A DNA stretch of 33,547 nt, taken from positions 1 through 33,547 of the IMG/VR virus record IMGVR_UViG_3300027784_000525, one strand, 5' to 3'. Shown here piece by piece: positions 3,138 to 22,738 of the stretch. Made by a program: the position numbers and the translations under genes. The notes beneath the pieces are model-generated. The model searched no databases and was not told the DNA's origin. It saw nothing but the letters and a program-made list of their open reading frames with translations. Source of the DNA: a virus. Each line of letters starts with the position of its first letter. The first letter of the stretch is position 1.

Positions 3138-3583
3138 TGCCAGACACTGGCGGTTATAGCATTCACATTGATCCGGGCGAAATGGATCGGCTTGTCGAGC
3201 AGGTCGTTACCGTTTATAAGAGTGCGGTGCAATATATGGCGACCGATCTTTGGGGCCATATAGGTCGCGAAGCTCCCACGAATCACGGGCGGCTGGCAGG
3301 CAGCTTTGATATACAGATGATGGATCCTTATACGTGGCGGATTTTTACTATGGTTCATTATGCAATGTTTGTCCACGAAGGAACAGGCGTTTACGGGCCT
3401 GTCGGACATCCGATCGTTCCCGTGCAAGCGCAGTTCTTAAGGTTCGAGTGGCATGGCAGGATCTGGTTTATGCGCAGCGTCCGCGGTCAAGAGGCGAACC
3501 CTTATATTGACCGGGCAATAGATACCACGAAAAGGCAAAAAATGCAATACGTGGAAAAAGCTTTAAATGAGGTTGCAGCTTAA
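3137..3583 (+). CDS. HK97 gp10-like neck / head closure protein
   Basis: 148 residues. The diagnostic stretch is VHYAMFVHEGTGVYGP, then HPIVP, then a beta segment with a conserved tryptophan (GRIWF) and RGQEANPYIDRAID near the C-terminus. The FVHEGT...P.G..PNPYI pattern is typical of the HK97 gp10 family, which joins head to tail in siphophages. The start ATG overlaps the previous stop, and the product is of the usual family length. Confidence 0.85.
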   Translation: MPDTGGYSIHIDPGEMDRLVEQVVTVYKSAVQYMATDLWGHIGREAPTNHGRLAGSFDIQMMDPYTWRIFTMVHYAMFVHEGTGVYGPVGHPIVPVQAQFLRFEWHGRIWFMRSVRGQEANPYIDRAIDTTKRQKMQYVEKALNEVAA

Positions 3584-3599
3584 AAGGGAGGGCTGAAAA

Positions 3600-5126: not shown

Positions 5127-5648
5127 ATGGGTGAAAAGGAAGCTGTTAACAGGTTAACAAAGGCGCAGATCTTAGAGGGAACCGATCAGGTTTTTTATGA
5201 GCACTTTGCGGCTTTGAACGGGGAGGTCGCGCTGGTGCCGCTTAGTGATGGGCAGTATGCGCAGGTTGAAGCGATCCGATCAGGCGGCGCAGAAATGGTC
5301 GGAACGCCTGTTATGACGCCTGAAGGCGATGTTGATCGTGCAAAAAGCAGTGAAAACCTGCAGTTTAAAATCGACATGCAAAAGGCTACGGAGCACGATC
5401 ATGAAGCTGATGTGCTGGCGGTGGCTTACAGCTTAAGCGGTGGCACGGGCGAACAGTGGACGGATCGCGATGTAAAAAGTATCAGGCCGCCGGGCGTGGT
5501 CAAGGCGATTGCCGCAAAAGTTTATGAAATATCAGGCGTGCAGCAGCAGCAGATCGAGCAGGTGCGTTCCTTTCGCGGCAAGTCCGGAGGGTCAGCAGAT
5601 AATAAGCCTGCAGATGGCAGGCGTGCCGCTGGTAAAAAAACAAAGTGA
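5127..5648 (+). CDS. Tail assembly chaperone, short form (gpG-like)
   Basis: 173 residues starting at ATG 5127 behind GAAAGGAG. It sits between tail tube and tape measure, where phages encode the chaperone that binds the tape measure. The N-terminal part is folded and acidic; the C-terminal end is low-complexity and basic (GRRAAGKKTK). An A7 run at 5634-5640 lies two codons before the TGA. The frame that continues beyond this stop encodes the T-like extension. The short form should be the major product. Confidence 0.8.
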   Translation: MGEKEAVNRLTKAQILEGTDQVFYEHFAALNGEVALVPLSDGQYAQVEAIRSGGAEMVGTPVMTPEGDVDRAKSSENLQFKIDMQKATEHDHEADVLAVAYSLSGGTGEQWTDRDVKSIRPPGVVKAIAAKVYEISGVQQQQIEQVRSFRGKSGGSADNKPADGRRAAGKKTK

Positions 5649-5817
5649 AATGACGCCTGCGCAGCGGTGCTTCCTTGTTGAAGGATTTAACTACGCACAC
5701 TCACAAAAAGGCGGCAGTGCTGCAGGCGGTGGCAGCGTGGGCGGTGGCAATAAAGCCGCACAGCGCGACAAGTTAAAGCAGCAAGCTGCAGCGCGCAAGC
5801 AGGAAGGCCGTCAGTAA
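5127..5817 (+). CDS. Tail assembly chaperone, frameshifted long form (gpGT-like)
   Basis: Downstream of the gpG frame, another frame stays open to the TAA at 5815-5817 and encodes QSEMTPAQRCFLVEGFNY and a Gly/Lys/Gln-rich tail. No start codon in that frame has a properly spaced ribosome site: the ATG at 5614 lies 23 bases after GGAGG. It should therefore be made by slippage on the A7 run at 5634-5640. Moving from the gpG frame to this frame needs +1 or -2, because the -1 frame stops at 5651-5653. Re-pairing of lysyl-tRNA is perfect for either shift. The resulting fusion would be about 229-230 residues. Confidence 0.7.
5634..5640 (+). promoter_or_regulatory. A7 slippery site for +1/-2 recoding
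   Basis: Seven A residues are read as AAA-AAA-A in the gpG frame, two codons before the UGA stop. Lysyl-tRNA can slip by -2 or +1 with full codon-anticodon pairing and then read AAA-CAA-AGT-GAA in the T frame. RNA-polymerase slippage on the A run could yield the same frame. Confidence 0.65.
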
Positions 5818-5848: not shown

Positions 5849-5924
5849 GGGGCCGAAAGGGATAGATCAGGTTAAAGCTTAAGTGCGGCCTGATACCGCG
5901 GTTCAATTCCGCGCGGCTCCGCCA
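5849..5924 (+). ncRNA. tRNA-like structure with alanine-type acceptor, no D-arm or anticodon
   Basis: This lies in the 128-base gap between the chaperone and the tape measure. A 7-bp acceptor stem pairs GGGGCCG (5849-5855) with CGGCTCC (5914-5920); it contains a G3:U70 wobble, the alanine identity element. G at 5921 is the discriminator and an encoded CCA follows at 5922-5924. A perfect T arm is present: CGCGG, loop TTCAATT, CCGCG (5897-5913). The total is exactly 76 bases with CCA. The middle part does not form a D-arm or a normal anticodon arm. Instead ATCAGG (5866-5871) pairs with CCTGAT (5889-5894), with TTAA-AGC-TTAA inside. This resembles the tRNA-like domain of tmRNA, or a decayed tRNA. 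Confidence 0.7.
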
Positions 5925-5945
5925 GAAAAGGTGGTGAGGCAGCTT

Positions 5946-8066
5946 ATGGCAGTGATGGAAGTTGTATTAAAAGCGGTTGACCGTGTTTCAGATACCGTGC
6001 AAGGGATCGGCAAGCAGACCGGAAAGACAGCCGGCTTTATGGAACAAAACTGGAAGGCGATAGGCGTGGGTGCTGCCGTGGCTGGCGGTGCCTTTGAAAT
6101 GGCTGCGCGCAAGCAGGCGCCGCTTACCGAGCAGACGCAGAAGCTGGGTGATGCGCTTAATATGACCGAAGGCGAAGTTCGCGATCTGGCAAGCGGCATG
6201 TCTGACGTTACTTTCCCGATCGAAGATGTGCTTGACCTAATGGAAAAAGGGCGGTCGCAAGGGATCGAAAGCGCAGAACAGCTGGAAGAATATGCGCAGT
6301 TTTGGGATATGGTCGGCGATGCCACGGGCGAGAGTGCGGTGCAGCTGGCAGACGGTGCCGCCGGGCTGCGCGCTGTGGGCATAGCTGCAGGTGATGAAGC
6401 AGAGGCGGTGGACGCCTTTGGTTATATTACACAGGAAACGAGCGGTGATGTCAGCGATCTGCTGAATTTCCTTGAACGCACGGGGCCGGAAATGCGCGAA
6501 ATGGGCGCTGACGTGGACGATGCTGCGGCCATTATGGGCGCGCTGGAGCATGAACTCGGTATGACCGCGCGCACGGCGCGGCAAGAGTTTCGCAAGGCAG
6601 TTCAGGAAGCTGATGGCGATATGGACGTAATGCTTGAAACGCTGGGGCTTACCGAGGAACAGTTTGAGGAATATAATAAGGCTGTGGGCGAAAGCAGCGA
6701 TGTTATAGAACGAAACGCAGAAACGCACGCGGACAGCTATACTTCAATGGAAAAGCTGCAGCACAAAGCCGAAGATCTCATGTATCAATACGGCGATTTG
6801 ATTGGCATGGTCGGAAACTTTGCTCCGGTTATGATGGCTCTGGGGCCGATCATTAAAGGCGTTTCAATGGCGAAGAAGGCTATGGCCGCCGTTTCAATGA
6901 AGGCGCTGGTGCCTGCTGTTCTGGGTGCTACGAAGGCAGCGTGGGGCTTTACGGCTGCACTGCTGGCGAACCCGATTGTTTGGATCGTGGCCTTGATCGT
7001 GGGCTTAATAGCGGCCATTTATTTATTATGGAAAAACTGGGATGATGTGTCCGAATGGCTGGTTGATAGCTGGGAAAAAATCAGCGAAACGGCGACCCGG
7101 ATCTGGGAAGGTTTGGCAGAATATTTCAGCGGCTTTTGGGAGCGCGTGCAGGAATTTTTCGGCAAAGCGCTTGAGTTTATTAAAAACCTGTTTTTTAAAT
7201 ATCATCCGCTGGGGATCATTGTCGCACACTGGGAAGAAATTTTAGACTTTTTCCGAAATGTATGGAGCCGGATCTTGGGCGTGGCGGACATGTCGCTGGA
7301 TGAAATAGTTGCTTTCTTTGCACAGTTACCGGGCAGGATCTGGGAATGGCTTGTTAACGTTATGGGCAGGATCTATAACTGGGATCAAGAAATGATTAAT
7401 GCTGCAGTGGAAGCCGGGCAGGGCTTTATTAATAATGTTATTGACTTCTTTTCACGCCTGCCGGGCAGGATCTGGGGCTTTTTAACTAATGTTATCGGGC
7501 GCGTGCTTGAGTGGCGCGCACGTATGATCAGCCGGGCGCGCGAAGCTGGCAGCAGGCTCGTTAGTGGCTTTATGGACATGATCCGGGGCTTACCGGGTCA
7601 GCTTTGGGGCGTGCTGCAAAGAGCCGTTCGGAACCTGTTTAACATAGGATCATCGCTTTGGAACGCAGCAAAAAGCGCTGGTTCGCGGATCTGGGGTGGT
7701 ATTAAATCCGGGCTTGGTATCGGTTCGCCTTCCTACGTGGAGCACGCGATTGATGCTATGGCTGAAAGGGCAAAGGATCTGCCCGGCGAAATGCAAGCAG
7801 CTTTCGGGCGAATACCGGGCCTGCAGCCGGAGCTTGAAATGGGTGTTAACGGGGCGGCAGCAACGGAGCCGATCCGCGGTGCTGGCACACGGCGCTCGGA
7901 ACTTACCATTAAGCACGACCTGCAAGATGTGCCGGATCATATTGACGAAGAACGGCTGGCGGAAATACTGGCGCGCAGCTTTGAACGGCCGGAAATACAG
8001 CGCGCGCTTGATCAATCTGAACACGATGCAAAGCACAGATTTAAGGCGCAAGGGAGGGAGTTTTAA
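5946..8066 (+). CDS. Tail tape measure protein
   Basis: About 706 residues. The ATG at 5946 is preferred over the GTG at 5883 because GGTGGTGAGG precedes it, and the GTG lies inside the tRNA-like structure. The N-terminal third is helical and acidic (TEQTQKLGDALNMTEGEVRD), as in TP901-type tape measures. A hydrophobic membrane segment near residue 340 (NPIVWIVALIVGLIAAIYLL) precedes tryptophan-rich helices. Three repeats of about 43 residues share LPGRIW...V.GRI.W or LPGQLWGVL. The C-terminal region has GIGSPSYVEHAIDAM, common in this family. It sets tail length and is the largest protein in the tail core block, as expected. Confidence 0.93.
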   Translation: MAVMEVVLKAVDRVSDTVQGIGKQTGKTAGFMEQNWKAIGVGAAVAGGAFEMAARKQAPLTEQTQKLGDALNMTEGEVRDLASGMSDVTFPIEDVLDLMEKGRSQGIESAEQLEEYAQFWDMVGDATGESAVQLADGAAGLRAVGIAAGDEAEAVDAFGYITQETSGDVSDLLNFLERTGPEMREMGADVDDAAAIMGALEHELGMTARTARQEFRKAVQEADGDMDVMLETLGLTEEQFEEYNKAVGESSDVIERNAETHADSYTSMEKLQHKAEDLMYQYGDLIGMVGNFAPVMMALGPIIKGVSMAKKAMAAVSMKALVPAVLGATKAAWGFTAALLANPIVWIVALIVGLIAAIYLLWKNWDDVSEWLVDSWEKISETATRIWEGLAEYFSGFWERVQEFFGKALEFIKNLFFKYHPLGIIVAHWEEILDFFRNVWSRILGVADMSLDEIVAFFAQLPGRIWEWLVNVMGRIYNWDQEMINAAVEAGQGFINNVIDFFSRLPGRIWGFLTNVIGRVLEWRARMISRAREAGSRLVSGFMDMIRGLPGQLWGVLQRAVRNLFNIGSSLWNAAKSAGSRIWGGIKSGLGIGSPSYVEHAIDAMAERAKDLPGEMQAAFGRIPGLQPELEMGVNGAAATEPIRGAGTRRSELTIKHDLQDVPDHIDEERLAEILARSFERPEIQRALDQSEHDAKHRFKAQGREF

Positions 8067-22636: not shown

Positions 22637-22638
22637 CA

Positions 22639-22707
22639 GCCGAAACCGGGCGGAGCAGCAGCGGCCTGCCCGGTATGCAAAGGGTGCCGCCTTTGCACTG
22701 ATGAGGC
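22639..22707 (+). ncRNA. Hammerhead ribozyme B (type II)
   Basis: It starts two bases after the amidoligase stop. GCC (22639-22641) and GAAA (22642-22645) lead into stem III CCGGGC/GCCCGG (22646-22651 with 22668-22673), then U22674 and A22675, with cleavage after A22675. Stem I is TGCAAAGG (22676-22683) with CCTTTGCA (22690-22697), eight Watson-Crick pairs. CTGATGA lies at 22698-22704 and GGC at 22705-22707, closing stem II with GCC. The next ribosome site (CGGGAGG) lies about 25 bases downstream, so a cleaved mRNA keeps its translation signal. Confidence 0.95.
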
Positions 22708-22738
22708 AGGCAGCAAAAAAAAACGGGAGGCGTTAAAT

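Follow-up and report, generated by a model that had tools for sequence, protein, structure and literature searches.

What is a 76-nt element that shares its acceptor and T arm with tRNA-Ala, and has neither a D stem nor an anticodon arm, doing between two tail genes of a phage? The element occurs once, on the plus strand of a virus record of 33,547 bases (the whole of this stretch is called the window here) that also encodes Dit, a tape-measure protein and an amidase, and it ends in an encoded CCA.

Anatomy of the element

An earlier note, made from the letters alone, had described a tRNA-like element with G3:U70, a 7-bp acceptor, a perfect T arm and CCA, and had held that it could not readily be chance. 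The sequence reads as described (Table 1), and the element is real: a stringent motif search, which asked for a 7-bp acceptor, a 5-bp T stem with a TTC[AG] loop, CCA, and a spacer of 18 to 89, had a single match in the window, and 200 dinucleotide shuffles scanned on both strands gave 0. At minimum energy the strand folds into the acceptor/P2/T-arm structure (-31.2 kcal/mol, z = -2.54; energy equalled in 4 of 200 shuffles), and none of the 18 pairs in acceptor, P2, and T arm is broken. ARAGORN called no tRNA and no tmRNA in the element (0 genes), an Rfam search gave no gathering-level match at 5849 to 5924, and by tRNA criteria both the D stem and the anticodon arm are absent from the ARAGORN result and from the fold. 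In their place stands the 6-bp ATCAGG/CCTGAT stem that the earlier note had pointed out, separated from the acceptor 5' strand by a 10-nt single-stranded stretch. That note laid no stress on the discriminator, which is G rather than A.

Table 1. Coordinates of the element, its parts, and the adjoining genes in the window
Feature	Position	Strand	Basis
Putative tail assembly chaperone (G-like) ORF	5127..5648	+	Inferred from position between tail protein and tape measure
Putative GT extension, overlapping ORF in other frame	5509..5817	+	ORF list
TLD-only tmRNA-like RNA gene	5849..5924	+	R1 model, 50.4 bits; RF00023, 38.3 bits
Acceptor stem 5' strand GGGGCCG (G3 of G3:U70)	5849..5855	+	Sequence; 7/7 pairs with 5914-5920
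Stemless D-loop motif GGGATAGA, counterpart of tmRNA GGNTTCGA	5859..5866	+	R1 alignment columns 11-18
P2-like stem 5' strand ATCAGG	5866..5871	+	Fold; R1 alignment
P2-like stem 3' strand CCTGAT	5889..5894	+	Fold; R1 alignment
T arm CGCGG-TTCAATT-CCGCG	5897..5913	+	5/5 pairs
Acceptor 3' strand CGGCTCC, discriminator G73, CCA	5914..5924	+	Sequence
GGTGGTGAGG, ribosome-binding-like stretch between CCA end and tape-measure ATG	5930..5939	+	Sequence
Tape-measure protein gene	5946..8066	+	PHROG tape-measure families, best E 8.7e-51

Resemblance to the tRNA-like domain of tmRNA

Judged from its sequence, the element is a divergent tmRNA reduced to the tRNA-like domain (TLD), composed of acceptor, stemless D-loop, short P2 hairpin, and T arm. 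A covariance model (R1) built from 24 gap-free phage family sequences, with the window left out, placed it at 50.4 bits (E = 7.5e-10), the next match in the window reaching 9.8 bits. Structure-passing family members scored 49.6 to 94.8 bits with R1, and the best match in 13 tRNA-rich control loci 34.6 bits. The Rfam tmRNA model RF00023 aligned end to end with the element with its middle deleted (38.3 bits, E = 1.1e-15), a score under the curated cut-off of 47 bits, and in a permissive Rfam search of 251 bases the tmRNA model matched in part (12.2 bits, E = 0.0035).

The acceptor, D-loop, P2, and T arm of a tmRNA TLD are thus all found within one 65- to 90-nt unit. The D-loop motif retains G11, G12, U15, G17, and A18, the loop positions that are invariant in the seed alignment A2, and has AUAG in place of UUCG. 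The P2 strands are 17 nt apart, which leaves out the tag reading frame and the pseudoknots, and neither the sequence nor the RF00023 alignment contains a message-like domain with a tag. The earlier note had likened the element to the tRNA-like half of tmRNA; that likeness is made precise by R1 and RF00023 as a TLD without the rest, and the interpretation as a whole is supported in part.

The ATAGA group (L093, L128, L139, L140, and L142 to L144) reached 41 to 45 bits with R1, and a pattern with the TAC linker of the window found four more loci (L271 to L274) carrying three distinct elements at 38 to 50 bits. A contig from a metagenome-assembled genome (MAG), L266, has the same linker and reached 66.5 bits. 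Taken together, these scores place the window element on a continuum with the family.

A family of TLD-only elements in viral contigs

The starting point for the family was a broad tRNA-Ala-like pattern, which had 124 matches in viral contigs, mostly ordinary tRNAs; 16 of them, the window among these, were left uncalled by ARAGORN. Several of the ARAGORN-negative matches carry the tmRNA signature GGNTTCGAC and, ahead of the T arm, GGAC, the two lying too close together for a message domain to fit between them. A family pattern (B) that combined the signature and GGAC with a gap of 12 to 42 bases returned at least 120 rows from viral contigs. After a structure test that demanded 7/7 acceptor and 5/5 T pairs, the acceptor register being free to shift by one, there remained at least 71 distinct TLD-only elements at at least 118 loci on IMG/VR contigs; 2 of the 73 distinct sequences tested failed and were dropped. 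Two pattern-A matches (L138 and L141) were false. Among the matches listed, 15 of the 71 distinct elements encode CCA. The subset with a CAG T stem has 8 members in a complete scan and 6 among the matches listed, from which we extrapolate to about 160 contigs with TLD-only elements.

RF00023 aligned end to end with four short loci, again with the middle deleted, at 71.3, 61.7, 59.8, and 56.2 bits over 70 to 83 nt. In 21 of 22 virus records the tmRNA model gave one match each above the 47-bit cut-off, all of 78 to 85 nt, the exception being the window; RF00023 misses some permuted tmRNAs, for which RF04321 is needed, and permuted forms in these 22 records may escape it. None of the 22 records encodes SmpB, as would be expected of an RNA acting on the SmpB of the host.

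A similar pattern had 10 matches in 84,980 bacterial and archaeal species genomes, of which 5 are real, all on MAG contigs, and 5 are not TLDs. The same pattern matches 99 of the viral loci. TLD-only elements are hence virus-biased, with at least 118 structure-passing viral loci versus 5 in the 84,980 genomes.

The fold is kept by compensating changes. When 87 distinct sequences were fitted to the model, 97.7% of cells were paired versus 69.5% in shuffles and 41 to 53% in slid versions, and 17 of 22 pairs had changes on both sides. For the 24 gap-free aligned sequences, a set chosen for equal length and register, the figures were 96.6% versus 74.9% in shuffles, with both-side changes in 14 of 22 pairs. 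Where the earlier note had allowed for a lack of conserved acceptor/T-arm pairing, the family shows covariation in all three helices, acceptor, T arm, and P2. G3:U70 is present in 87/87 sequences, window included, although the search patterns fixed G3, U70 was fixed in the tRNA-Ala-like and TAC-linker patterns alone, and the structure test required a standard pair there. The copies in Streptomyces phages, found by similarity, keep G3:U70, even in LuckySocke and BRock, where the pair next to it (pair 4) reads U-A. The discriminator is A73 in 86/87 sequences and G73 in the window alone. The invariance of G3:U70 points to alanylation within the family.

Comparison with known tmRNAs

The window element shares with bacterial tmRNA (RF00023) the acceptor with G3:U70, the stemless D-loop, P2, the T arm, and CCA, but it has no message domain or pseudoknots and counts 76 nt against the 374 positions of the model. 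Full or permuted phage tmRNAs are phage encoded too, but keep the message domain. With tRNA-Ala it shares the acceptor GGGGCCG/CGGCTCC, the T arm, and CCA, without the D stem and anticodon arm. According to passages of PMC11915505, plastid and mitochondrial tmRNAs without a coding sequence (CDS) likewise have no tag frame, some being about 65 bp; unlike the element, these are organellar, and their role is thought to be rescue within the compartment to which they belong. The closest relative in kind is the TLD-only tmRNA of mycobacteriophage DS6A, described in passages of PMC4131195 and PMC11915505 as a phage-encoded tmRNA TLD with little else. Compared with DS6A by its description, the window copy differs in its tail-operon position, divergent D-loop, UAC linker, and G73.

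Of the 97,179 sequences in the 2025 tmRNA database, 79 come from phages and 9 are classed as "standard, no CDS" (passages of PMC11915505). One open-licence literature collection, in the portions of text it offers, yielded no earlier report of a phage TLD-only tmRNA family. Within the open-licence literature searched, TLD-only phage tmRNA is thus a known kind with one named example in print, DS6A. What is new is the size of the family and its covariation, the preferred place before the capsid gene, the occurrence in cultured Streptomyces phages, and the divergent variant in the window.

Genomic context

In the window, the stop of the second putative chaperone ORF lies 31 nt upstream of the element and the tape-measure ATG 22 nt past its 3' end; no promoter-like site was found near it. 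The first putative chaperone ORF had no PHROG match. The putative chaperone pair (5127-5817) suggests a programmed frameshift ahead of the tape-measure gene. A run of seven A occurs near the end of the first ORF, and the second is in the +1/-2 frame. The host of the window phage is likely clostridial: Thermoanaerobacterium phage THSA-485A has a primase 44% identical to the one encoded here, and the best-covered matches of the tape-measure protein are Coprococcus phages (23% identity).

Related tape-measure proteins are encoded on 16 contigs, with 44% identity in the nearest. The five nearest contigs have an upstream ORF that extends as far as the start of the tape-measure gene, with no element between, and a search of the records of all 16 (several being fragments) with R1 found no copy; the element was therefore probably inserted in the lineage of the window phage alone. 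An ordinary tRNA at this place, which the earlier note had named as the sign of simple decay, was found in none of the relatives. An exact search of viral contigs with the T arm and acceptor of the window gave 0 matches, and the region has no DNA similarity to cultured phages. Similarity searches with the element alone gave only partial matches, which were set aside: annotated tRNA-Cys genes and sites with either no annotation or a tmRNA annotation, some of them next to integrase genes.

Elsewhere in the family, and among the matches listed, the major capsid gene is downstream of the element in 36/118 instances (13/71 distinct elements), with a head protease upstream and the capsid gene downstream in 31 instances (12 distinct); an exonuclease gene, mostly ending at the element, is upstream in 12 instances (6 distinct), and a tRNA gene is found at 1 kb or less in 13/129 instances. 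L145, L152, L161, L165, L193, L220, and others have their TLD-only element in the interval that separates the head maturation protease gene from the major capsid gene. In the cultured Streptomyces phages LuckySocke, pSt2308, and BRock, the copies (80.6, 78.9, and 69.2 bits) are inside tRNA clusters, and the three records examined have no annotated feature at the TLD element; GiJojo and Alone3 match by similarity only. On the basis of these three records, short forms escape standard annotation. ParB-like genes adjoin TAC-linker-type elements in two unrelated contigs (L139 and L271), and a DNA methyltransferase gene lies beside the element of L093, which belongs to the element group of L139.

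Possible functions

We favor, with a probability of roughly 0.6, the reading that the TLD-only RNA is a decoy of trans-translation that inhibits the host tmRNA late in infection. The element would be transcribed as part of the tail operon and excised by tRNA-processing enzymes, with RNase P cutting at 5849 and 3' processing at the encoded CCA. The excised RNA would bind host SmpB, and probably also AlaRS and EF-Tu, and would compete with the real tmRNA of the host, inhibiting trans-translation late in infection. For the window phage we infer the expression, processing, SmpB binding, and benefit that this reading entails. The observations behind it are the anatomy, the TLD homology, the covariation, the invariance of G3:U70, the absence of a message domain, and the frequent placement in structural-gene operons. 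Mao et al. in 2009 is reportedly the primary paper on the inhibition of tmRNA by TLD-only molecules.

According to passages of PMC4131195 and PMC11915505, tmRNA is strongly inhibited by a TLD-only molecule of the DS6A kind, with or without the ability to be charged, and titration of SmpB may be the cause. Passages of PMC3968760 add that SmpB binding by tmRNA needs D-loop/T-loop contacts and that charging is specified by G3:U70 and A73, A73 being named as key for AlaRS; hence, weaker alanylation should be expected of the window copy with its G73. Against a decoy stand the single copy, which has no counterpart in the 16 tape-measure relatives against which its conservation could be gauged, G73, the AUAG D-loop, the RF00023 score under the cut-off, and the negative search for a promoter-like site nearby.

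A broader proposal, to which we give somewhat less than an even chance, is that many phage lineages keep a stand-alone TLD to counter ribosome rescue, in many cases coupled to the capsid or tail operon, the window copy being a divergent tail-operon version. If true, blocking host trans-translation during late gene expression would be a common and so far unnoticed strategy of phage takeover. A recurrent, covarying family in culturable phages makes it testable whether phages disarm ribosome rescue, and why some need to, and such RNAs could possibly be used as genetically encoded inhibitors of trans-translation.

The earlier note had left four functions open (alanylation, a processing signal, an RNA end cap, and a decoy), of which the decoy of trans-translation is favored and the processing signal remains as a rival, though an unlikely one. 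The tRNA-like fold would then act in cis as a cleavage signal for RNase P and 3' tRNA processing. Cuts there would divide the polycistronic late transcript into an upstream mRNA with a separate 3' end and a tape-measure (or capsid) mRNA with a separate 5' end, and the released RNA would be a by-product. The location between chaperone and tape-measure genes agrees with this, as do the 21-nt leader with an intact ribosome-binding stretch that a cut after CCA would leave and, among the matches listed, the 36/118 instances upstream of a capsid gene, the 31 between protease and capsid, and the 12 (6 distinct) downstream of an exonuclease gene. However, cleavage requires neither the invariant G3:U70 nor the tmRNA D-loop motif, any tRNA would suffice, and among the matches listed the 13/129 instances near a tRNA gene and others on no clear operon boundary do not fit.

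A role as a tag-less rescue RNA is less probable still. Such an RNA would be alanylated, delivered together with SmpB, and accept the stalled peptide, and with no message it would lead to drop-off without a proteolysis mark, resembling what may happen with mitochondrial tmRNAs that have no tag frame. G3:U70 in 87/87 and A73 in 86/87 sequences suggest that the charged form, for which simple titration would have no need, matters in most of the family; this leaves room for such a role, and passages of PMC11915505 attest to CDS-less mitochondrial and plastid tmRNAs. The effect reported for TLD-only molecules, charged or not, is inhibition (passages of PMC4131195), and G73 weakens the case for the window copy.

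It is very improbable that the element is functionless, whether a decayed tRNA-Ala, which its acceptor and T arm resemble, or what remains after a phage integrated at a tmRNA gene, a site used by some phages (PMC10865867, in excerpt): we reject a decayed tRNA as its identity given the tmRNA-type D-loop and P2, the 18/18 intact pairs, no tRNA by ARAGORN, and tRNAs reaching at most 34.6 bits with R1, and an integration remnant would be expected to keep one gene end, whereas both ends are present here, inside a late operon.

Other structured RNAs encountered

The searches also brought up tmRNA genes of other forms. Enterococcus phage vB_OCPT_Ben has an unannotated full-length tmRNA (L282, 1182-1532; 149.5 bits, Rfam), and Rfam identified permuted tmRNA genes in Pseudomonas phage PA_L9 (L278), Stenotrophomonas phage QDWS359 (L279), and Xanthomonas phage Rb1 (L283). 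Synechococcus phage S-CRM01 (L260) was rejected as a TLD-only candidate, its gene being by eye a permuted tmRNA with the T arm first. The stretches shown for these last four phages have no tmRNA annotation. Vibrio phage D239 (37.7 bits) has a possible TLD, too close to the range of tRNA scores to claim. The L093 contig, besides its TLD element, bears an int-alpA RNA (3532-3597, minus strand; 35.9 against a gathering score of 35.8), and the window has a type II hammerhead ribozyme (22638-22719, plus strand; 41.3 bits, where the gathering score is 37), flanked by an amidoligase gene and a DUF6011 ORF.
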